A stretch of 46,966 nt of DNA from Candidatus Poribacteria bacterium (GTDB lineage: Bacteria; Poribacteria; WGA-4E; WGA-3G), in the NCBI GenBank assembly GCA_012270795.1, contig JAAXHO010000247.1, positions 1-46,966 on the forward strand, in the 5' to 3' direction. The notes beneath the pieces were generated by a model. The model made no database searches, was not told the DNA's origin, and saw nothing but the letters and a program-made list of their open reading frames with translations. Position numbers and translations under genes: made by a program. Shown piece by piece: positions 1 to 45,482 of this stretch; the stretch's first letter is position 1, and every line of letters starts with the position of its first letter.

Positions 1-235
1 GAATAGTAATTAGCACAAGTCGTTTAACTAACCTAAAAGTGTCGGATCCGTGCATTTTACCGTTGCTCTGATCCTTCGTATCTGGGATTCGGTTTGTGTG
101 CTTGGGATTAAAAACATTACCCAATATGAAAATTCCTTACATTCATGCCAAACCAAATGTTGTATTATTTATCACTGAATATTACGAAGTTATAATATTG
201 GTTTCCTAAAATGTTAAATTAAAATTATGTCATCA
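1..235 (+). repeat. Dispersed ~215-bp repeat, copy 1
   Basis: From about position 27 this stretch matches two other places in the window, 15904-16138 and 42160-42398, in the same orientation. Shared landmarks in order are AACTAACCT, GTGTCGGATCCG, a GATCCTTCGTAT-like segment, ATTCGGTTTGTG, CTTGGGATT and a distal CAAACC[AG]AAT. ATTCGGTTTG and the distal segment can pair across a loop of roughly 70 bases. No plausible reading frame spans it. It could be a non-autonomous mobile element or a structured RNA; the sequence alone does not decide. Confidence 0.7.
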
Positions 236-2994: not shown

Positions 2995-3756
2995 TCAGTT
3001 TCTGTTGGGGATTTCAGCTAAATGTGCTTGGGGTGTGCCGTTATGATAATCACCATCACAAGCGTTCAGCATCCATTGGCTGAGACGGGAAACAATATCA
3101 GGATGCTCTGAAGATACATCGTTTTCCTCACGATAATCACTGAGAAGATGGTATAATTGGAAACTATCCAACTGGTTGATATACCGTAACTTCCAACCAT
3201 CAGAGTTTACAAGGGCGGGACCAAGTCTTGAAGCATATACAATCCATTCATGACTCTGTTGTGCGTCAGGTTGTTCTAACAAAGTCGGTAAATATGACAC
3301 ACCGTCTTTGTCTTGCGGCATTTCTATGCCGAGTAGCTCTGCAAGAGTCGGCATAAAGTCGTAATTCGCTAACATGTGGTTTGATTCAGTGTTGGGAGTG
3401 ATGGTTCCTGGGAATCGCACAAGGTAGGGCACTCGTGTCCCGCCTTCCCAATTTGAAAACTTCAGACCTCCCATACCGTCATTACCGTTGAATACGTCAC
3501 CACATGTTTCTGAATAGAACTTTGATGTAATATCATCTAATCGTTCCCCATTCAAATTGTTCTGTCTACCGGTTGTTCTTCCTTCTTGGCGATAATATAC
3601 CTCGTGTCCGTTATCAGATGTAAACACAATCATTGTGTTGTCGTCAATTCCAAGTTGTTGAAGTTCATCCAAGATAATACCAACGGTTTCATCTAACTTC
3701 AGTATCATTGAAGCGTATTCTTTCTCATACGTCGTAAGTTCTGTAGACTGTTTCAC
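2995..3756 (-). pseudogene. Sulfatase, C-terminal part (frameshifted)
   Basis: This is the distal half of an arylsulfatase-type protein. It contains the metal-site segment FTSDNG (residues 45-50) and a GGTRVPYLVRFPG segment typical of family S1 sulfatases. The frame opens at GTG in a GTGA overlap with the stop of the upstream half. The missing one base in CACCCAATGTG would otherwise join HP to NVKQS and give one sulfatase of about 498 residues. The frame could be restored by a single extra A, so this is a one-base deletion, an assembly error or, less likely, programmed slippage. No ribosome binding site precedes the GTG, so it is probably not a separate gene. Confidence 0.8.
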
Positions 3757-4493
3757 ATTGGGTGGATGTCTGGGATGGAAATCGGTCCGTGGGGTAGCTG
3801 TGAAGGATGATACAGAAAGAAGGGTTTATCCTTGTGATCTCGTAGAAACTCAACAATTTTATCGTTGAAAATGTCTTGTGAATATACTGCTTTACCTTGG
3901 CGATTCCTGCGAATTTCGATGTTCTCGGCAGATTCAGAATTTGGATGTTTTCCACAATCTGCATGGGTATTCCCTTGAATGTGTGTCAATTCCCCGTTAT
4001 CAAAAAGGAAGGGTGGATAAAAGCCGTGGCAACGTTGATGGTCATAGTAACCGTAGTGATACTGCCAACCATGTCGGTAAATGCGTTTGGCTGTTGTGGC
4101 AAATCCCCATTCAAGTTTTCCTATCTGTCCTGTTGCATAACCCGCTTGTTCTGCGATTTGTGCTAAAAAGACATCATTCGGACTTGCTTGTAAACCTGTT
4201 GTATGAATCAACTCTGAGATTTCATTCGGGTTCATTTCACCAGTGCTTATACTTTTATAGATGCCAGCTTTTGTATATGTCCATCTTCCTTGATGGCAAT
4301 CATGGATTCCTGTCAGCATACTGGCTCGTGATGGGGCACAGAATGCACAACCGTAAGCGTGATTGAATCGCATTCCTTCGTTTGCGAGTCGGTCAATGTT
4401 TGGTGTTTCAAAATGTTGCTGCCCATAGCAGCTTAGCGTGCCGCGTCCGAGATCGTCTGCGAAGATGAGAATTACGTTTGGGTTATTTGTCAT
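3753..4493 (-). CDS. Sulfatase, N-terminal part with formylglycine motif
   Basis: The 246-residue frame starts with NVILIFADDLG (metal-binding aspartates 13 and 14) and contains the sulfatase signature C-A-P-S-R at residues 52-56, where Cys52 would be converted to formylglycine. It ends after PHGPISIPDIHPM because of a frameshift at about 3757; the remaining catalytic domain is in the next frame. As written, the product lacks half the domain and should be inactive. It begins 15 bases after the sucD stop, so it is the last gene of that strand's run. No signal peptide is seen. Known family role is hydrolysis of sulfate esters. Confidence 0.85.
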   Translation of the reverse strand: MTNNPNVILIFADDLGRGTLSCYGQQHFETPNIDRLANEGMRFNHAYGCAFCAPSRASMLTGIHDCHQGRWTYTKAGIYKSISTGEMNPNEISELIHTTGLQASPNDVFLAQIAEQAGYATGQIGKLEWGFATTAKRIYRHGWQYHYGYYDHQRCHGFYPPFLFDNGELTHIQGNTHADCGKHPNSESAENIEIRRNRQGKAVYSQDIFNDKIVEFLRDHKDKPFFLYHPSQLPHGPISIPDIHPM

Positions 4494-15290: not shown

Positions 15291-15572
15291 TTAAATCGGA
15301 CTAACTTCCCAAGTTCGTCTATCATTCTGACAACGCTGCACATGTCCCTCTTTCTCAAGAGCACATAGAATGCTGTTAACGATGAGATACGCTGAACCGG
15401 CTGCGTCTGTTTGTATAGGCGGAATACCAAGTTTTTCGCTAATTTGTTTTGGAAAGAGACACTCTCCAGATTGTTTAGCTTCTATGAGAATCGCATGCAC
15501 TGCCGTTCTAAGATACTCAATCCCTCTATAAGCGAATTCTTGTTCAGGTGTTCTACCATCTATAAATACCAT
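15291..15572 (-). CDS. Hypothetical protein, 93 aa, possible winged helix
   Basis: The protein looks helical with an FPKQISEKLGIPPIQTDAAG segment that resembles the recognition part of a winged-helix fold and a C-terminal strand, RRTWEVSPI. The family is not recognised. An AAAGGAG site lies 13 bases before the ATG. Its 5' leader (15594-15650) shares sequence with those of the two small genes downstream. A role as a small DNA-binding regulator is a guess. Confidence 0.65.
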   Translation of the reverse strand: MVFIDGRTPEQEFAYRGIEYLRTAVHAILIEAKQSGECLFPKQISEKLGIPPIQTDAAGSAYLIVNSILCALEKEGHVQRCQNDRRTWEVSPI

Positions 15573-15650: not shown

Positions 15651-15903
15651 ACCCAAGTTGCCACTTATAACATCTCTATCATCTACACTGGACTTTCAGA
15701 TAAGTCCTGTTCACAGTTTCTATATACCGCTCTGCTGAAGCGGAAGAAGGACAAACTTTTTCAATAAACATGTCGCTCCGCCAATTCAACGTGAACAATG
15801 TCTTAATGACATTCCCCGGAGCGAATATTGAACACGCTTTTCTAAAGATTATGGACAGAGTAGGACTTACGCATTCCTCTTAAGGTTTCCTTGAAATGTG
15901 GCG
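15651..15903. other. Gene-free segment with small hairpins
   Basis: No gene. A hairpin with TCGCTCCG and CGGAGCGA arms lies at about 15773-15824 and carries in its loop AATTCAACGTGAAC and GACATTCCCC, a version of the loop motif found in three other hairpins of this window. The rest shows no supported feature. Confidence 0.55.
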
Positions 15904-16138
15904 CAGATTCAGGGTTCCGTAGGAATCTTTCAACTAACCTAAAAGTGTCGGATCCGTGCATTTTACCGTTGCGCAGATCCTGCGTATTTGGAATTCGGTT
16001 TGTGTTCTTGGGATTGAAAACCTTGCTATGTCCGAAAATCCCTGATATTTATGTCAAACCGAATATTGTATTTTTTACCTAACGTCACTTTAAGTATAAT
16101 ATTGGTTTCCAAAAATGTCAACCAAAAAAATTATTTCG
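15904..16138 (+). repeat. Dispersed ~215-bp repeat, copy 2
   Basis: It shares with copies 1 and 3 the order CAGAT-TCAGG, GTAGGAATCT, AACTAACCT, GTGTCGGATCCG, ATTCGGTTTGTG, TTGGGATTGAAAAC, GTCAAACCGAAT and AATATTGGTTTCC. ATTCGGTTTG pairs exactly with CAAACCGAAT. Its end abuts the GGTGTGTAAAG terminus of the next element. Confidence 0.75.
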
Positions 16139-16139
16139 G

Positions 16140-16433
16140 GGTGTGTAAAGTTTTTGTCAGAATCACCAAATCAACGGTATGAATGCATTATGGCATTCCC
16201 CGGATTTCACGGCATGCTTCAGAATCACGGAATGCGCGGAAAACACGGAAAACACGGAAAAGACCGTTGCCACAGATCGTCTTGCTTAGTTATGGGTTAT
16301 TCTTTGCGATAAATGTTCATGATGGGGTGTCTTTTCCGCGTCTTCCGTGTACTCCGTGCCTTCCGCGATTCCGCACACAAAGGAAATATGAAATTCCTAA
16401 ATTGACATTTATAGTGGCAAAACTTTACACACC
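16140..16433. mobile_element. MITE-like element with GGTGTGTAAAGTTTTTG termini, copy 2
   Basis: Termini GGTGTGTAAAGTTTTTG (16140-16156) and CAAAACTTTACACACC (16418-16433) enclose about 294 bases without a transposase. Inside is AAATCAACGGTATGAA with ATGGCATTCCCCGG, then a GAATCACGGAATGCGCGG arm with a complementary arm near 16330-16376. The same outer and inner layers occur in copy 1 at 10735. The flanking sequence on the right is a fragment of a glycosidase gene start. Confidence 0.75.
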
Positions 16434-16516
16434 CGTTGATTGTCCGTTTCTTGGACTGTGGCGGGTTGTTGAAAGGGTTGGACTAACCAATCGTTTTGTT
16501 GTGCTGTGTAGTGCAT
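16434..16516 (-). repeat. Fragment of glycosidase 5' end
   Basis: The reverse strand reads ATG then [20 protein letters not shown] and on to ETDNQ, in frame, nearly the N terminus of the intact enzyme at 5387-7429. It breaks at the CACACC end of the adjacent element, the same junction as in the copy at 11618. It can encode only about 28 residues, so it is a remnant. Confidence 0.75.
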
Positions 16517-18731: not shown

Positions 18732-19447
18732 TTACCGATAAGGATTCACGGTTTGGTAATATAGGTCCTGATCCCATTTGGCATCCTGACGCTTGACCCA
18801 AACCTTAGGTTCACTCGGTGTGTCGTAGATACCAAGAAAATTCAGGACTTTCTTGAGGATTTCCTTTTGCTGTGTTTCTGTTTCTAAGTCTCTATACCAA
18901 GAAAATTCAGGACTTTCTTGAGGATTTCCTTTTGCTGTGTTTCTGTTTCTAAGTCTCTATACCAAATTGTTAGGGGGAAAACCTTGTTTTCTTGAAAGTA
19001 ATATCTCCACGACATATCCTGTGCAGTTAATTCAAGTGTACTGTATGCGATTTCATCACGCGTAATTTTGATTTGATTGAGATCGTCATTTGTCTGGGTT
19101 TTATCTGTCTCGTAAAAGCAATTGCGTTTGTGAGCTTTCAAAAGGGAGATGGCTTGTTTTATTTTATCTTCTCTGCGTATCCAGATGCATTTTATGTTTT
19201 TAAAATCTATAAACTTTTCAACGATATGCCTTTCTTTGGCCATGACCTGTATCCCACAAACTCCATTCGGTGAAGTGGAAACGGATACGTATTTTTGATA
19301 TGTTGCGGGGTCGGTTATGTCCAAGTCTTTTAGCGATTCGTGTCCTTCATGGTATTCTCTCGGATATCCTGCTACATCGGATGAGACCAACAGGTCACAC
19401 AAAACGGTGCTGCGTGTGCGGGGTGTTGCACAGATGACGTAGATCAT
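18732..19447 (-). pseudogene. Stf0-type sulfotransferase disrupted by a 65-bp tandem duplication
   Basis: The open frame 18884-19447 gives 187 residues. It begins IYVICATPRTRSTVLCDLL, a 5'-phosphosulfate-binding P-loop-like segment of the Stf0 family, and ends abruptly LNFLGIET. The bases 18831-18895 are repeated exactly at 18896-18960; 65 is not a multiple of three, and the second copy brings an early TAG. Without it the frame continues IYDTPSEPKVWVKRQDAKW to a TAA at 18732, restoring a normal C terminus. Stf0 proteins sulfate glycolipids such as trehalose. The duplication may be real or an assembly artefact. Confidence 0.85.
18831..18960. repeat. 65-bp perfect tandem duplication
   Basis: Two exact 65-base copies, 18831-18895 and 18896-18960, begin with ACCAAGAAAATTCAGGACTT and end in CTCTAT. 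They lie inside the sulfotransferase coding region and shift its frame. Confidence 0.95.
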
Positions 19448-26926: not shown

Positions 26927-29900
26927 TTAACTTGACGGTTCATCTACTTCACCAACTGGTTCAGGTAGTTCCTCTGGTTCAGGATTAACGATTGCACTGC
27001 TTGTAACTTCTTCATCGGTTGGTTCAGGTAGTTCCTCTGGTTCAGGATTAACGATTGCACTGCTTGTAACTTCTTCATCGGTTGGTTCAGGTAGTTCCTC
27101 TGGTTCAGGATGAGCGATTGTGCTGCTTTTAACCTCAAGTTCCTTCCATTGAGAGAAACCAGTTCCAGCAGGGATAAGTCGTCCAAGTATAACATTTTCC
27201 TTCAAACCGGTGAGTAGGTCTGTCTGTCCTTCTACGGCTGCATCAGAAAGTACTTTACGAGTTTCTTGGAAGCTGGCTGCTGATATGAAACTTTCTGTGC
27301 TGAGTGATGCTTTGCTAATGCTCTGTAAAACGGGTTTTCCAGTTGCAGGTACACCTCCATCCTGTTCAACGCGTCTATTCTCTGCGTGGAATCTGTGTCG
27401 TGGTACTTCATCATTAGCGAAGAATTCGGTATCACCTACGGATAGTATTTTTATCTTTTGTAGCATTTGCCTAACAATAACTTCAACGTGTTTATCATTG
27501 ATAGTATTGTTTCCGGGATATACTGCTTGTACTTCATCAACGAGGTAAGCCCAGACTGCTTCTTCACCTTCTATCGAATGTCCGTTGATAGTTGTTCTAC
27601 CGATTTCAAGGATATCGTGCGGATTCAGGAATCCGTCCGTGAGGGGTTGTCCGGCTTCAATCCAGTCACCATCATCAACCCGTCGTTTTTCATCAGTGAT
27701 AGAATAGAGTCTACTTTGTATTTTACCATCAACTATTCTGTATTGTGGTACACCTGCCTTCTGTCCTGTAAGTTGGACATATCCATCAATCTCTGCGATT
27801 TCTGCAGCGTCTTGCCGTTTTGGTGGTCGGGCTTCAAAGAGTCCGGTTACTCGTGGGATACCCGCCACGATGTCAAGGTTAGTCGTTTTTTCGTGTAACT
27901 CTGCTAAAGCCTGCTGTGACTTTACCTTTTCACCTTCCTTGAGTGAACCGGAATACCCGTTGGGAATTAAGTGAGATACTCTTGCACCGTTTGTGGTTAC
28001 TATATCAATACGGAACCTTTCTTTGAGGTCATCCACTTCAACTCCTGGATACTGTTCATAAGCTGTGGTGTATTCCCAATCCTTCAGTGTTTGTCCAACA
28101 GTCAGTGTGCAGTTAGGGTGAATGATGTTTGTAACTTCATAAGTATTTTTTGAAGTGGCTGCAGTTACATCCTTATAGTCTGCTTCACTTAGGATTTCGC
28201 CGACGGTGAGTTCGATTTCAGCGTCATTGACCTTTGTCACCTTGAAAACGCGTTCAGTATCAAATCCTTTGTAAAGTCTCAATGCGCGTTTATACTCGGT
28301 TTCGTTTATACGTTCACCAACAGTAAGTTGACATTCGCTATGATGTACTGCCAGAATGTGGTAATAAAGTTTGTATTCTGGGGGGGATGTGTCAGTCTCA
28401 CGATGTTTTTTGACCAATGCTTTATAATTCGATTCCATTAGAACTTCTTCAGAATCACTTTCCTCATTTGCAGGTATATAGAGTTTTTCAAAGTCAAAAC
28501 CTCTATAGCTTCTTCGGAATTTGTTGGATTCAGATTGTGTGATTCGTTCATCAATCTCGACAGGAAAATCTGGATGGTGTATTGCCACGACTTTATACAA
28601 TCTTTCAACTTCAAACGCTTCGTCGTTTTTTGCGACATTGACATCAAAACCTGGGTATTGCTTCATTAAAGCTTTTTTCTCACTATCGGTAAGGAGGGTT
28701 CCAGGTTCTAACTTGCAATCTGAATGATGTATAGCGGTGATTCTATGTTTGAGGGGATCTACCGTAACACCACTAAATTTCTCAAGTAAAGAAGCTAAGT
28801 TTGCACTTTCAATGAGTTCCCCCGGTTTCAGAGGACATTCAGGATGCGTAACTTGCGTGACGCGATACTGAGGTGTTGATAATTTCTGGACATCAAAAGC
28901 CTTGTTTTCTTCTTGCTTACGGCGGAATTCAGCTGCAGTCAGTTTTTGCCCTACTTCAATATCAATTCCATCACTCACTTCTTTTACAGTATAAATGGGT
29001 TCATCAAATTCAATATGGTATTGACTTTCTTCTTCAGGTGAGAGCAAATCTCCTACTTTATGTGGGAATTTGGGATCCGTAACCGATTCAATTTTATACT
29101 TCATTTCTGCGGTTACACTGTCCTTCTTCTGCAAGTATTCGCTTTCAGAAAGAATATCACCTTTAGCAGTTTGATATACCCATTCACCGTCAAAGGGACG
29201 GATTTTTGCTCTCCATTCTTCTGCTTTGCTTTCTGTCAAGAGTCTTCCGGGTTTTAACGAAGTCTTTGGCTTTGATACACTGATGACAGGAAACTGTGCT
29301 TCGTTGCAACGGAATAGAGAATATTTATGAGAATAGACATGGTATTCTTGTTCAGTAAGGTACTGCCCTACTGTCAATGGTTCATCCTTATCAGAAGCAG
29401 CTTCAATAACATCTGGGCGGTTAATTTGTCTGACTTCGTAATAGATAGTTTCTACTTCAAAACCGGGAAACCTTTCATTGTTTTCCTGCTTCTGTTTTTC
29501 TGTGAGTAGTTCTTCCGGTTGTAGTTTACATTCAGGGTGTTGTACTGATCTGACCTTATATTTCGGTTGGTCGGGGTGTTCAGCGACCTGTTGTGCGATC
29601 CACAGACCACTTTCTTCTCGAACGGTGCGGCCGGGTATATAATCGCGGAATCGTACTGTTCCTGTAGCTTTTGCTAGGATTTTCCGAGCAAGACGTTCAC
29701 TCATATCTTCAACAACGCCCCCAGTGTGGAAAGTACGCATAGTCAGCTGCGTTCCAGGTTCACCGATTGATTGTGCTGCGATGATTCCTATTGCTTCACC
29801 GACATTTACAAATTGACCTGAAGTTAAATCTGCACCGTAGCAGGTGGCACAAGCACCTTTTTCTGCTTCACAAGTGAGGATAGATTTTACTCGCACACTG

Positions 29901-32662
29901 GGGACTTCTATATCCTCAATGTGTTGTGCCATCTGTGGTGTGATGATCGTATCAGTTTCTACCAATACTTCCTCTGTTTCGGGATGAATCACTGGTTCAA
30001 CGGCAACTCTGCCACTAATTTTATGGCTAATAGTTCCTGAGTCTGTAGTGAACTTGAGAATGCCGTGTGTGGTACCGCAGTCTTCTTCAGTGATCATTAC
30101 ATCTTGTGCTACGTCTACGAGTTTACGTGTTAAGTAACCAGAAGCAGCGGTTTTCATAGCGGTATCCACCAATCCCTTCCGCGACCCATAAGTGGATGTG
30201 AAGTAGTCAAGAACATCTAAACCTTCACGATAGGAGGATTGAATCGGTGTAGAAAGGATTTCACCACTCTGTTTGGATTTCAAACCAACGATAGCACTGA
30301 TTTGATTGAATGGGTTCTTACGTGCGCGTGCCCCACTATCTGCCATAAGGTGAACAGGGCTGAATCCTTTTACATCTTTTCCTTGTTCAACCAGATGCGT
30401 TCCTGTTTCAGGTAGCGTTTCAAACAAAGAATCTTGAATATCAGAAACAGCATCATACCAGATCCGTATTTTTTCGTTCTCTAATTCTTCGAGCTCAAGA
30501 TTTTCCTCTGTAGACAGTCGTTGAATTTCAGCACTTGCTTTATTTAGGATTTCCATTTTATTTTCAGGTATCAGGTAATCCCTGATACCGGGAGAAATCC
30601 CACTACGTGTTGCATATTCAAAACTCAGTGTTTGTAGACGGTCTAATAGCGAAACAGTTTCTGCAGTTCCGAGTTCGTTAAAACACCTTTTTACGAGTTC
30701 TGATAAGCGTCTGCTGCGTGCTTCCTCGTTGAAGAATGGTATTTCAAGTCCTGTTGTTTCATCTTTCCAAGTAAGGGATGCGGTTCCGTTGGTATGTGGG
30801 AGAACTTCATTAAAGATGACACGTCCAACAGTTGTCAAGATCGGTTCTCGATGTCCTTTGAAGAAGAGTATAACCGAATCGTGTAGTTTGAGAGTTCCGC
30901 ATCCGTGTGCGTGTGTAATCTCATCTACTGTTGCGTATCGACGTTTCGCCCATTCTTCTTTTTCTAAAGATGAAAAGTCACCGTTAGATTTGGATTTATC
31001 TGAGTTTTCCGTATATGCAGCATGAAGTTGTTCAGCGCGTTGTGTATGTTCCGGCAATGTTTTTGTTAAAAAACTTGCCCCCAAAATCATATCCAATTCT
31101 GGTACAGTAATAGGTTCGCCGTGCGATGGTTTGAGGATATTTCCACTACTTAGCAGTAACATTTTTGCTTCAGTGCGTGCCTCAATAGAGAGTGGGACGT
31201 GCACAGCCATCTGGTCACCGTCAAAATCTGCATTGAATGCTTTACAAACAAGTGGTGGAATACGAATAGATTTACCTTCAACAAGTACAGGCATAAATGC
31301 TTGGATTCCGAGTCTATGGAGCGTTGGTGGCCGATTGAGCAGTACCGGATGGTCAGCGATGACCTCTTCCAATGCCTCCCAGATCGGTGAATCGGATGTG
31401 ACGTGTTCGGTCATGTATTTTCCGCGTTTGATGGTCTGGACTTCACCTGAGGCTAATAGTTTTTCAATAATGAATGGTTTGAAGAGTTCAACCGCCATCA
31501 ATTTTGGGATACCACATTGATGTAATTCAAGCTCAGGTCCTACGACGATAACGCTTCTTCCGGAATAATCAACGCGTTTTCCAAGGAGATTCTGACGGAA
31601 TCGACCGACTTTACCTCTTAGTATGTCGGATAATGATTTTAGGGCGCGTTTGCCCGGACCAGTAACTTGTCGTCCATGTCGTCCGTTATCCAAAAATGCG
31701 TCAACTGATTCCTGAAGCATCCGTTTTTCATTTCGGAGGATGACTTCTGGTGAGCGTAAGTCGATGAGTTTTTGCAGTCGATTGTTTCGGTTTATAACGC
31801 GTCGGTATAGATCGTTTAGGTCGCTTGTCGCAAATCTTCCACCTTCTAAGGAGACTAAGGGACGGAGATCGGGGCTGATGACGGGTAGGACATCCAATAT
31901 CATCCAATCTGGTTGCATCTGTGTTTTATTGAAACCTGCAACCATTCTCAATTTCTTAGAGAGTTTCATTTTTTTCTGCCGGCTGGAGGTTGCTTCCAGT
32001 TCTTCAGTGAGTTTTTCAACATCGTCAGATAGAGTGGTTTTTTGGAGGAGTTCCTTGATTGCTTCAGCCCCAGTTCCTGCTTGGAAGGAATCGGGATATT
32101 CTCGTAACTTTTCCTCCATTTCAGATTCCTTCAGAATATCTTTTTCAACCAATCCACACTCCTCATCAATTACTTCAATAACGGTGAATGCTTCAAAATA
32201 GAGTATGCGTTCTACGGTCCGTGATGCGAGTTCAAGGAGTGTTCCTATCCGTGAAGGGATGCCTTTAAAGAACCAAATATGAGAGACAGGTGTTGCGAGT
32301 TTAATATATCCAAGTCGTTCACGCCGGACCTGTGATTTTGTAACCTCAACACCGCACTGGTCACAGATTAGTCCTTTGTGTTTAATTCGCTTGTATTTGC
32401 CACAACTACATTCAAAATTCTTTTGCGGTCCGAAAGTTGCTTCACAGAATAGACCTTGATGTTCAGGTCGAAAACTTCTGTAGTTAATGGTTTCAGCTTT
32501 CTTGATTTCACCACAGTCGCAAGTGCCTTTTTCTGGGCATGACCATGTGTCATTAGTTGGGTTCCTCCGTTTGCAAGAGGTGCGTTTTGCCCAATCTCTT
32601 ATCTGTTCAGGAGATGCAATGCTGATAGAGATACGATTAAATTGATTTTCTTTGTCTGTCAT
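26927..32662 (-). CDS. rpoC: RNA polymerase beta' subunit with large repeat-rich trigger-loop insertion
   Basis: The 1911 residues exceed typical RpoC (about 1200-1400). Core features are present: zinc cysteines C85, C87, C100, C103, the catalytic NADFDGDQM (477-485), second zinc site C862, C931, C938, C941, and the trigger-loop start GEPGTQLTMRTFH with GG at 981-982. The loop resumes at DIVAGIPRVTGLFEARPPK (1597 on), so about 610 residues lie between. Most, about 1035-1549, are some eleven degenerate repeats of 35-50 residues (Y.V..I.HP.C.L..GE.L.E). An extra cysteine cluster, C30, C42, C48, C50, precedes the zinc ribbon. The tail has a 21-residue repeat (63 bp) of Glu-Pro-rich sequence. Confidence 0.97.
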   Translation of the reverse strand: MTDKENQFNRISISIASPEQIRDWAKRTSCKRRNPTNDTWSCPEKGTCDCGEIKKAETINYRSFRPEHQGLFCEATFGPQKNFECSCGKYKRIKHKGLICDQCGVEVTKSQVRRERLGYIKLATPVSHIWFFKGIPSRIGTLLELASRTVERILYFEAFTVIEVIDEECGLVEKDILKESEMEEKLREYPDSFQAGTGAEAIKELLQKTTLSDDVEKLTEELEATSSRQKKMKLSKKLRMVAGFNKTQMQPDWMILDVLPVISPDLRPLVSLEGGRFATSDLNDLYRRVINRNNRLQKLIDLRSPEVILRNEKRMLQESVDAFLDNGRHGRQVTGPGKRALKSLSDILRGKVGRFRQNLLGKRVDYSGRSVIVVGPELELHQCGIPKLMAVELFKPFIIEKLLASGEVQTIKRGKYMTEHVTSDSPIWEALEEVIADHPVLLNRPPTLHRLGIQAFMPVLVEGKSIRIPPLVCKAFNADFDGDQMAVHVPLSIEARTEAKMLLLSSGNILKPSHGEPITVPELDMILGASFLTKTLPEHTQRAEQLHAAYTENSDKSKSNGDFSSLEKEEWAKRRYATVDEITHAHGCGTLKLHDSVILFFKGHREPILTTVGRVIFNEVLPHTNGTASLTWKDETTGLEIPFFNEEARSRRLSELVKRCFNELGTAETVSLLDRLQTLSFEYATRSGISPGIRDYLIPENKMEILNKASAEIQRLSTEENLELEELENEKIRIWYDAVSDIQDSLFETLPETGTHLVEQGKDVKGFSPVHLMADSGARARKNPFNQISAIVGLKSKQSGEILSTPIQSSYREGLDVLDYFTSTYGSRKGLVDTAMKTAASGYLTRKLVDVAQDVMITEEDCGTTHGILKFTTDSGTISHKISGRVAVEPVIHPETEEVLVETDTIITPQMAQHIEDIEVPSVRVKSILTCEAEKGACATCYGADLTSGQFVNVGEAIGIIAAQSIGEPGTQLTMRTFHTGGVVEDMSERLARKILAKATGTVRFRDYIPGRTVREESGLWIAQQVAEHPDQPKYKVRSVQHPECKLQPEELLTEKQKQENNERFPGFEVETIYYEVRQINRPDVIEAASDKDEPLTVGQYLTEQEYHVYSHKYSLFRCNEAQFPVISVSKPKTSLKPGRLLTESKAEEWRAKIRPFDGEWVYQTAKGDILSESEYLQKKDSVTAEMKYKIESVTDPKFPHKVGDLLSPEEESQYHIEFDEPIYTVKEVSDGIDIEVGQKLTAAEFRRKQEENKAFDVQKLSTPQYRVTQVTHPECPLKPGELIESANLASLLEKFSGVTVDPLKHRITAIHHSDCKLEPGTLLTDSEKKALMKQYPGFDVNVAKNDEAFEVERLYKVVAIHHPDFPVEIDERITQSESNKFRRSYRGFDFEKLYIPANEESDSEEVLMESNYKALVKKHRETDTSPPEYKLYYHILAVHHSECQLTVGERINETEYKRALRLYKGFDTERVFKVTKVNDAEIELTVGEILSEADYKDVTAATSKNTYEVTNIIHPNCTLTVGQTLKDWEYTTAYEQYPGVEVDDLKERFRIDIVTTNGARVSHLIPNGYSGSLKEGEKVKSQQALAELHEKTTNLDIVAGIPRVTGLFEARPPKRQDAAEIAEIDGYVQLTGQKAGVPQYRIVDGKIQSRLYSITDEKRRVDDGDWIEAGQPLTDGFLNPHDILEIGRTTINGHSIEGEEAVWAYLVDEVQAVYPGNNTINDKHVEVIVRQMLQKIKILSVGDTEFFANDEVPRHRFHAENRRVEQDGGVPATGKPVLQSISKASLSTESFISAASFQETRKVLSDAAVEGQTDLLTGLKENVILGRLIPAGTGFSQWKELEVKSSTIAHPEPEELPEPTDEEVTSSAIVNPEPEELPEPTDEEVTSSAIVNPEPEELPEPVGEVDEPSS
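26958..27110. repeat. 63-bp tandem repeat in the rpoC tail
   Basis: Near-identical 63-base units begin at 26958, 27021 and 27084 and encode a 21-residue repeat with PEPEELPEPTDEEV. The third unit is partial and diverges at its end. Confidence 0.9.
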
Positions 32663-41298: not shown

Positions 41299-41715
41299 CT
41301 ATCTCTTTTTCTTTTGCTTCTCCATGAACTCGGAGAAATTCAGGTCATGTCCTTCAGCATAAGCTTGTTCCCAAGCTGCAGCCCATTCCCTCAAAATTTT
41401 CTTCACACGTGACAACCGATTCCGCACGGAGGAAGGTTTTAATGAAGGGAAAGCATCGCGTAATTCCTCAGCAATTTCATCGTAACTCTTACCAGCGCAT
41501 TGCAGGAGTAGTATGCTCTGTTCTAATTCAGGTAATTCCTTAATTGTTTGTTGAAGTTTTTCGCGTAGAACCTCGTTCATTCTGTTTGAGGTGTAAAACT
41601 CAGTTTTAGCAAACTTGATAACCTGTTTATCGTTAGATTGAAGAATTTGGTAGACTAATTCCGCGTTCCGAGTATGATGTTGTTCATCATTCCACAATTT
41701 TACGCTTTCATTCAT
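41299..41715 (-). CDS. Sigma-70 region 4-like regulator, 138 aa
   Basis: The C-terminal half reads an HTH typical of sigma region 4: LPELEQSILLLQCAGKSYDEIAEEL, then SSVRNRLSRVKKILREW. Region 2 is missing, so it cannot be a complete sigma factor; it may be an anti-sigma-like or RNA polymerase-binding regulator. AGGGGC precedes the ATG. The 74-residue membrane gene and the TPR gene follow on the same strand. Confidence 0.7.
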   Translation of the reverse strand: MNESVKLWNDEQHHTRNAELVYQILQSNDKQVIKFAKTEFYTSNRMNEVLREKLQQTIKELPELEQSILLLQCAGKSYDEIAEELRDAFPSLKPSSVRNRLSRVKKILREWAAAWEQAYAEGHDLNFSEFMEKQKKKR

Positions 41716-42005: not shown

Positions 42006-42075
42006 TTCAGGACGGACACATTTCCCCTAAACCCCTTATCAAGGGGACTTTAAGAGGAAATGCGTCCGTTCTGAA
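42006..42075. repeat. Inverted repeat, TTCAGGACGGACACATTTCC type
   Basis: TTCAGGACGGACACATTTCC and the near-complement at the end (TTCAGAACGGACGCATTTCC when reversed) form the arms; the CCCCTTATCAAGGGG core is itself palindromic. Ends of this type recur at 42408-42545. Confidence 0.7.
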
Positions 42076-42159
42076 TAATAAGCGTTATGTTGATATTACA
42101 TTAACATTTTGGGGTTGGTGTGCGTTCACACCCACAATAACTCAATGAAAAATGTGAAA

Positions 42160-42398
42160 CAGATCAGGATTTCGTAGGAATCTATTCAACTAACCTGAGA
42201 GTGTCGGATCCGCGCCTTTGCCGATGCTCAGATCCTTCGTATTTGACATTCGGTTTGTGTTCTCGGGATTGAAAACCTTATCATGCGTGAAAAACCCTTA
42301 TATTTTCGTCAAACCGAATGTTGTGTTGTTTATGTTTAACTGAACGTCACTAAATTATAATATTAATTTCCAAAATATCAACCTAAAAATTATGTCGG
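42160..42398 (+). repeat. Dispersed ~215-bp repeat, copy 3
   Basis: The same series of landmarks as copies 1 and 2: CAGATCAGG, GTAGGAATCTATTCAACTAACCT, GTGTCGGATCCG, ATTCGGTTTGTG, CGGGATTGAAAAC and GTCAAACCGAATG. CATTCGGTTTG pairs perfectly with CAAACCGAATG. Elements of the CAGGACNGACGCATT family lie on both sides. Confidence 0.75.
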
Positions 42399-42407
42399 TA
42401 TTACATT

Positions 42408-42545
42408 CAGGACAGACGCATTCCCCCTTGATAAGGGGTTTAAAGGTAATTATTTTAGTTATTTACCCCACTCTCCCGGACGCTATCACCATGGGAACCC
42501 TTCCCGCTTACCAAGGGGACTTTAAGAGAAAATGCGTAGGTCCTG
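42408..42545. mobile_element. MITE-like element with CAGGACAGACGCATT termini
   Basis: CAGGACAGACGCATT (42408-42422) and AATGCGTAGGTCCTG (42531-42545) are inverted ends around about 108 bases with no coding capacity. Its interior has the same CCTTGATAAGGGG palindrome as the element at 42006. It is 70 bases before the PhyH gene. Confidence 0.7.
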
Positions 42546-44684: not shown

Positions 44685-45482
44685 TCATCCACAGCAAAAT
44701 GCACCAACTCTTTTGTGAGCAAAATGCACCAACTCTTTTGTGATTTCACTCTTGAGTGCTTCTTCCACCTCGTCATAAGCCTCTTTAAGGATTTCTTCAC
44801 CAGAAAGGATATCATTCTGAGTAAGGGGATAGGATTCCACCTTTTCCATATATTTATCAAATTTGCTGCGAATATCTTCCAATTTAACAGACATAATATC
44901 TCCTTTGGCACCACTCCAAATCTCGTGAATTACATGTTCCTGCTTCAGTAGCCGTTTTCTTGCACGGTGGAGCCGACTCTTGACCGTGTTCGTTGACACT
45001 CCCATATATTGACTAATATCTTCACATGTCATGTCATCAAGGTAGTGTAACGTTATAGTGGTTCGCTCACTTTCGGGCAACTTCTGAAGGAGGTGTTTGA
45101 CAACGTCGCGTTGTCGTTCACTTGCAATCTCTTTTTGCTGATTTTCGTGGTGCTGTGTATAAGCCAGATCCTCTAATTCCTCTGTTGGCATTGCATCTAA
45201 TGATTTCATTGGAATCCGCTTCTTTTTTAGCCAAGCGAAGCAGTGGCGAGCTGCGATCACGTAGAGCCATCCCACAAATTTATTCGGGTCTTTTAGAGTA
45301 TGGAGTTTTTCGTAAACTCTCAGGAATATATCTTGTGTGATTTCTTCAGCAGTGTGGAAGTCGCCAATTTTTCGCCAGACATAAGCGTGGACCGGCTTTT
45401 GGTATTTTTGCACAAGTGTGTTGAAAGCAGATTGGTCACCTGCCAATGTGCGTTGTATCAATTGTGCGTCATCGTTTTTCAT
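44685..45482 (-). CDS. ECF sigma-70 factor running into a TPR-like gene
   Basis: Residues 1-180 carry sigma region 2 (DFHTAEEITQDIFLRVYEKL, NKFVGWLYVIAARH) and region 4 (LPESERTTITLHYL, CEDISQYMGVSTNTVKSRLHRARKRLL). The frame then continues without a stop past residue 197, an ATG at 44894 with AAAGGAGATATT upstream, into a helical region (MSVKLEDIRSKFDKYMEKV) that should belong to the next gene. The C-terminal HKRVGAFCCG is probably an artefact of a 25-base duplication. The protein may be a sigma-TPR fusion with an internal start, or the stop between two genes has been lost. Confidence 0.85.
   Translation of the reverse strand: MKNDDAQLIQRTLAGDQSAFNTLVQKYQKPVHAYVWRKIGDFHTAEEITQDIFLRVYEKLHTLKDPNKFVGWLYVIAARHCFAWLKKKRIPMKSLDAMPTEELEDLAYTQHHENQQKEIASERQRDVVKHLLQKLPESERTTITLHYLDDMTCEDISQYMGVSTNTVKSRLHRARKRLLKQEHVIHEIWSGAKGDIMSVKLEDIRSKFDKYMEKVESYPLTQNDILSGEEILKEAYDEVEEALKSEITKELVHFAHKRVGAFCCG
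44690..44740. repeat. 25-bp tandem duplication
   Basis: The unit AGCAAAATGCACCAACTCTT plus TTGTG is present twice in a row. Its length is one more than a multiple of three, so it changes the reading frame between the sigma ORF and the TPR-like frame. Confidence 0.9.
44894..44906 (-). promoter_or_regulatory. Internal ribosome binding site within the sigma ORF
   Basis: On the minus strand AAAGGAGATATT immediately precedes ATG TCT GTT AAA, in the frame of the sigma gene. It suggests that the TPR-like protein can start here as a separate product. Confidence 0.65.

Follow-up and report, generated by a model that had tools for sequence, protein, structure and literature searches.

What is the repeat that occurs three times in this stretch of DNA, and why does it recur at separate places along one contig? 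The window analysed here is the whole stretch of 46,966 nucleotides, contig C238 of a Candidatus Poribacteria assembly (G000; 5.18 Mb in 298 contigs), and a sequence-only reading of it had left a choice between a non-coding RNA, an insertion hot spot and an element of its own. Our preferred explanation, to which we give a probability of roughly 0.7, is that the repeat is a dispersed promoter-plus-leader module, derived from one native gene, spread partly by MITEs and predicted to place its target genes under shared control.

The three copies are genuine and lie at about 20-235, 15897-16134 and 42111-42398. In a search of their own genome, copies 1 and 3 showed 79-80% identity to copy 2 (best E values, 8e-46 and 8e-52), and BLAST with copy 2 against the same assembly gave at least 45 matches, mostly near full length and with 78-91% identity. 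A covariance model of the 3' half of the element gave at least 46 matches in the assembly among 52 candidates scored. The two lists overlap partially, so that the figure of about 50 copies (at least 45-50 in total) is a lower bound, and chance similarity is excluded by this number of genomic relatives. The dispersed repeat first noticed in the window was thereby confirmed, and the proposed search for further copies in the genome returned many rather than none. The strand, in contrast, had been misread: the conserved promoter, the order of the hairpins and the order of the native gene all fit the minus strand in all three copies, and the plus-strand RNA reading was rejected. The extent had also been set too short, conservation continuing about 50 nt further on the low-coordinate side (to 42111 in copy 3) and adding a hairpin.

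Read on the minus strand, the element begins with an A/T-rich start (TAATTTTTAGG), followed in order by TTGACA, 17 nt, TATAAT, P1, P3, GGTTAGT, P4 and P5. A promoter of sigma-70 consensus (TTGACA-N17-TATAAT) is thus placed at the distal end, reading into a folded leader of about 250 nt. The P1 stem is formed by ATTCGGTTTG with CAAACCGAAT, the P3 stem-loop by GGATCTG...GGATCC, the P4 hairpin, before which GGTTAGT is strongly conserved, by GAATAGATTC...GAATCTGTTC, and the P5 hairpin at the 3' end of the leader by GGGGTGTGAACGTGC...GCACATCAACCCC. The P1 pairing pointed out earlier, which in copy 3 is that of CATTCGG with CCGAATG, is present. The features of the three copies and their surroundings are as follows.

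15897..16134, minus: copy 2 leader element with promoter, P1, P3 and P4, without P5 because a MITE end cuts the copy at about 15897
16116..16121, minus: copy 2 -35 hexamer TTGACA, conserved in the family
16093..16098, minus: copy 2 -10 hexamer TATACT, spacer 17
16055..16064, minus: copy 2 P1 5' arm (ATTCGGTTTG as RNA), read from sequence and aligned
15993..16002, minus: copy 2 P1 3' arm (CAAACCGAAT as RNA), read from sequence and aligned
15950..15980, minus: copy 2 P3 stem-loop (GGATCTG...GGATCC), helix 1 of the covariation test
15905..15928, minus: copy 2 P4 hairpin, helix 2 of the covariation test
15862..15875, plus: end of a family A MITE (terminal inverted repeat, AGGACTTACGCATT), directly adjoining copy 2 on its 3' side
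16138..16434, no strand: MITE family B (GGGGTGTGTAAAGTTTT ... AAAACTTTACACACCC; GTGTGTAAAGTTTT-type), abutting the 5' end of copy 2
15291..15572, minus: first co-oriented ORF downstream of copy 2, 93 aa
14597..15184, minus: next gene downstream of copy 2, exported protein of 195 aa
42111..42398, minus: copy 3 leader element, full length
42376..42381, minus: copy 3 -35 hexamer TTGATA
42354..42359, minus: copy 3 -10 hexamer TATAAT, spacer 16
42310..42319, minus: copy 3 P1 5' arm
42248..42257, minus: copy 3 P1 3' arm
42206..42235, minus: copy 3 P3 stem-loop, covariation
42111..42133, minus: copy 3 P5 hairpin at the leader 3' end, helix 3 of the covariation test
42008..42073, no strand: CAGGAC...GTCCTG-type MITE on the downstream side of copy 3
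42408..42545, no strand: CAGGAC...GTCCTG-type MITE on the upstream side of copy 3 (L024 1750-1885)
41299..41715, minus: co-oriented gene downstream of copy 3, sigma-70 region 4 protein of 138 aa
20..235, minus: copy 1 leader element with promoter, P1 and P3, cut before P4 at about 20, near the contig start, and without P4 and P5
212..217, minus: copy 1 -35 hexamer TTAACA, read from sequence
189..194, minus: copy 1 -10 hexamer TATAAC, spacer 17, read from sequence

Several other features of the window were recorded alongside the repeat. An rpoC-like ORF of 1911 aa (26927-32662, minus strand) contains many repeats of a short unit ('HPxCxLxxGExLTExEY'-like) in the latter half, and its C-terminal end holds three 63-bp tandem repeats (26944-27132). 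A perfect 65-bp tandem duplication (18829-18958) spans the 3' end of a sulfotransferase-like ORF, and a perfect 25-bp tandem duplication (44693-44742), possibly a frameshifting one, lies where a sigma-factor-like ORF overlaps the ORF of the downstream protein in a different frame. A sulfatase-like gene (2995-4493, minus strand) is represented by two overlapping ORFs (3753-4493 and 2995-3756), a split that probably reflects a frameshift or an assembly error.

The promoter is well preserved throughout the family. On the minus strand, copies 2 and 3 of the window score 11/12, and among the 40 copies reaching the -35 position both hexamers are perfect in 22 and carry no more than two mismatches in 30, compared with 4.5% of shuffled regions. 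The hexamer columns are conserved above the surrounding promoter columns (0.875 versus 0.753, p = 7e-4), the P3-P4 core is conserved above the rest of the element (p = 1e-7), and between genera P4 is the best-conserved section of the leader. This pattern would be in keeping with selection acting on promoter and RNA alike at the new sites, although the copies share a recent ancestor. A short ORF inside the leader, upstream of the gene (ATGCACGGATCC...TAG), was dropped as a candidate, since many dispersed copies have it and the native ones do not. No intrinsic terminator, P5 included, was found after the leader in window copies 2 and 3, and P5 was rejected as a terminator for this reason.

To examine the pairing, 28 leaders of both the dispersed and the native kind were aligned, and helices P3, P4 and P5 were counted. 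Pairing was retained in 89.9% of cells, compared with 20-45% when the partners were slid by 1-3 columns. Two-sided changes occurred in 13 of 31 pairs, amounting to 28 cells against a shuffled mean of 11.8, a value reached in 0 of 500 shuffles; they fall mostly in P3 and P5, while P4 is mostly invariant. By eye, P1 appears as CGGTTTG/CAAACCG in this genus and as GGTTTGG/CCGAACC or GTTTGG/CCAAAC in a second genus. RNAalifold on alignment A1 recovered P3 alone, probably because the loop lengths differ, and the consensus fold of the whole element was moderately better than that of shuffles (z = -2.1). The expected conservation of pairing was thus kept on aligning more copies, and the leader is, as judged from the alignment, a structured RNA with compensatory changes.

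Among 84,980 species of bacteria and archaea, a pattern scan that may omit records very near the window's own genome detected the core only in Candidatus Poribacteria MAGs, the lineage concerned being sponge-associated. Against Rfam, at gathering as well as permissive thresholds, only chance-level matches were obtained and no family's gathering score was reached. The sequences represent what appears to be an undescribed family of structured leader RNAs in Poribacteria, without an Rfam counterpart.

Most other genomes of the genus with a match carry one or two diverged copies each, and these point to the source. In several of them the native leader directly precedes the gene for a large secreted protein, with 45-52 nt between it and the start codon: so in G009 (protein of 1361 aa), G016 (1059 aa) and G017 (1353 aa), and also in G002, G008 and G014, where it is the second of two tandem leaders. 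Overall, native copies lie 45-70 nt upstream of a start codon with a ribosome-binding site, and the downstream gene encodes a large secreted protein with lamin-tail domains (PF00932). The same core, promoter and ribosome-binding site (AAGGAGGAGAATAAGTAAATG) recur in the second genus, where the gene has decayed in several genomes, so that in both genera native copies hold a consistent 5' UTR place before one orthologous gene. The window's own genome has kept its native leader (L149, 6919-7070), which stands in front of a gene for a homologue of 1080 aa and has a copy of the dispersed type upstream of it. In the tree, this native leader groups with the other natives (100/99), all dispersed copies form a separate star-like clade (100/99), and within it the copies of G000 and of its sister genome G013 fall apart from each other, a split with weak support. 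Position and tree together indicate that the dispersed family descends from the promoter and 5' leader of the lamin-tail protein gene. As separate observations, the tandem native leaders of G002, G008 and G014 (L170, L171, L172) stand about 600 bp apart, with a short decayed relative of the surface-protein start behind the first, and at nine loci (L189, L190, L193, L195, L197, L201, L203, L074, L075) leader and promoter are conserved while the lamin-tail gene that follows seems to have decayed or been replaced.

The position of the native copies also bears on the suggestion of a non-coding RNA, which stood as regards a structured RNA with covariation and had to be changed as regards its form, since a leader without a terminator, placed 45-70 nt before a start codon in native genes, is most likely the 5' part of an mRNA and not a free RNA. 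A multi-copy family of trans-acting small RNAs would agree with a promoter of its own, a stable fold, covariation and the lack of a tie to one gene family; the missing terminator, the native place in front of a ribosome-binding site and the sense coupling to downstream genes, which would be unexpected for such RNAs, make it improbable.

Movement of the leader is seen by comparison with sister genomes. At radC, G013 has an empty site (...AACCCAAATAAAATACAAAAAC...) where G000 carries an insert of about 370 bp with inverted ends YAGGACTTACGCATT and a 5-bp target duplication TAAAA; the insert holds the 3' half of the leader and lies downstream of the conserved radC promoter. At comEC, about 430 bp including the leader, bounded by ATACCATTTCTAA/TTAGAAATGGTAT, are present in G000, while the flanking genes are adjacent in G013. 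As read from these alignments, the empty sites of the sister species show insertion at both loci. A second leader-carrying composite (C22) has the target duplication ATTAA. A cas operon of G013 is interrupted by a leader that has MITE-A ends, at a place where G015 is without the leader. Terminal inverted repeats bound the family A composites that carry the leader (L039/L166, L167 and L161), with no target duplication seen at L161. Compared with G013, L142 and L160 have rearranged flanks and boundaries that are not clean. At L253 (G000, C33), upstream of the gene for a phytanoyl-CoA dioxygenase, only the promoter portion of the element was observed (TTGACATTTTTTGAAACCAATATTATAAT) and the leader body is missing; the orthologous site of G013 shows the converse, a leader body that has no promoter.

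Both MITE families are abundant in the genome. In G000 the motif of family A was matched 128 times, often as pairs about 107 bp apart, compared with 0 matches of the reversed control, and family B gave at least 69 matches. The mobile-element neighbours described earlier are corrected as follows: copy 2 lies between a GTGTGTAAAGTTTT-type MITE (16138-16434) and a AGGACTTACGCATT-type end (15862-15875), and copy 3 between two CAGGAC-type MITEs. The leader body has only a weak imperfect terminal inverted repeat and no long one of its own, and the direct repeat GTAATACCRACATAA, or part of it, is found at the ends of several full-length copies (window 42111-42398; L149 6614; L177; L137). The search of the ends for target duplications gave the 5-bp ones of the two leader-carrying composites and no clean one at full-length copies. 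Hence the proposal of an element of its own holds in that the leader is dispersed and, by empty-site comparison, mobile, and falls short in that it lies inside a MITE at both sites with a clean target duplication. MITEs do nest around the leader at constant positions, although an insertion hot spot as the main explanation was unsupported.

With gene calls made by a simple ORF caller on MAG contigs, nearly every copy has a same-direction ORF behind it, usually within 20-520 nt. The genes include comEC, radC, sigma factors and genes for dockerin, TPR and WD40 proteins in G000, and genes for a Cas RAMP protein, a PAS histidine kinase and a phytanoyl-CoA dioxygenase in G013; the 195-aa exported protein downstream of copy 2 has a homologue that also follows a leader copy in G013. 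Duplication of a gene family together with its leader, the leader alone still being recognisable, could be considered for the downstream proteins that are paralogous (a 17-member group connected through the C-terminal family of exported, lamin-tail type, and further groups with four members). Many further downstream genes are without mutual similarity, and the orthologous radC and comEC sites are empty. Such duplication is refuted as a general explanation, and very improbable as the origin of the family, while some copies may have arisen in this way.

Leader and downstream neighbour point the same way in 37 of 38 callable cases in G000 and in 11 of 12 in G013, compared with a ratio of 20:13 for the upstream neighbour. 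One could suppose a neutral or selfish passenger, that is, a leader fragment multiplied by MITEs into useless copies, with the bias arising from loss of insertions that drive antisense transcription; the MITE-rich surroundings and the native promoters retained at two sites are in agreement with this. MITE family B failed as an orientation control because it is palindromic, and was used to control for location instead. It too is found preferentially between divergent genes (12 divergent, 7 tandem and 1 convergent), and part of the 37:1 bias is therefore site survival, the p value rising to 7e-4 against this null. The fair test is confined to tandem-gene sites, where 17 copies are in sense and 0 in antisense (p = 1.5e-5). 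This orientation, the conservation of promoter hexamers and RNA core above the remaining element, and the enrichment of the targets for exported proteins, like the native target (N-terminal hydrophobic segments in 21 of 29 downstream proteins of G000 versus 42 of 123 controls, which include some spurious ORFs; p = 3e-4), speak against a passenger, which we regard as rather unlikely.

For the dispersed promoter-plus-leader module, the following course of events is proposed. The source would be the gene for the lamin-tail exported protein, with its sigma-70 promoter and about 250 nt of structured untranslated RNA. In the lineage of G000 and its sister G013, a copy of this leader would have become mobile, at least partly as cargo of MITEs bearing terminal inverted repeats, and would have been inserted, in sense, in front of dozens of other genes. 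Transcription at each of these places would start from the promoter of the module, and the folded leader would join the 5' UTR of the next gene, so that the target genes would share the native promoter and any post-transcriptional control exerted by the leader, which we infer may act as a regulatory RNA at its new sites. Not all copies can function in this way. The promoter part is absent from the radC and other MITE-A composites, which can act as UTR inserts only, and at radC and L142 the native promoter is still in place, the module being unneeded for expression there. It is conceivable, and we hold it only tentatively, that a riboswitch-like leader and its promoter were made mobile together and are building a regulon of exported proteins, in which selection would keep the response of the leader to its signal and not just the promoter.

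The nearest known kind of element is the mobile promoter, followed by promoter-bearing MITEs such as Correia elements. Mobile promoters are reportedly short non-coding repeats assumed to be promoters, in the accounts attributed to Matus-Garcia et al. 2012 ('Promoter propagation in prokaryotes') and van Passel et al. 2014. Like these, the present module is able to move and recurs within one genome, closely similar in sequence, in front of several genes that are not homologous, with a promoter recognisable by sequence in the 30 of 40 copies given above and with orthologous sites both occupied and empty. It differs in having an identified gene of origin, a long covarying leader RNA in addition to the promoter, and a strictly sense orientation. 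Correia elements (CREE/NEMIS) of Neisseria are short many-copy repeats directly upstream of genes, with sigma-70-like promoters and effects on transcripts (PMC10969869); they are themselves MITEs bounded by terminal inverted repeats, whereas here the body is without a long one, is oriented and originated from a native mRNA leader. BOX, RUP and SPRITE of Streptococcus pneumoniae are interspersed, structured, transcribable in 5' regions of operons and able to modulate downstream genes, and are over-represented between convergent genes (PMC3049150). The Poribacteria element, in contrast, is sense-oriented and almost never located between convergent genes. With riboswitches and other cis-regulatory leaders the native copies share a conserved 5' UTR structure, covarying helices and association with one orthologous gene in many genomes; the difference is that no Rfam family or known ligand is involved here and that dozens of unrelated genes are reached in one lineage.

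Coordinated control of many genes in bacteria has mostly been inferred from the turnover of transcription-factor sites. In these Poribacteria, the path of a promoter with a folded leader can be followed from the gene where it is native to dozens of targets, sister genomes offering native, occupied and empty sites for comparison, and the formation of a regulon by dispersal of a mobile control sequence becomes directly testable. The family looks like a set of co-regulated genes under construction by such a sequence.
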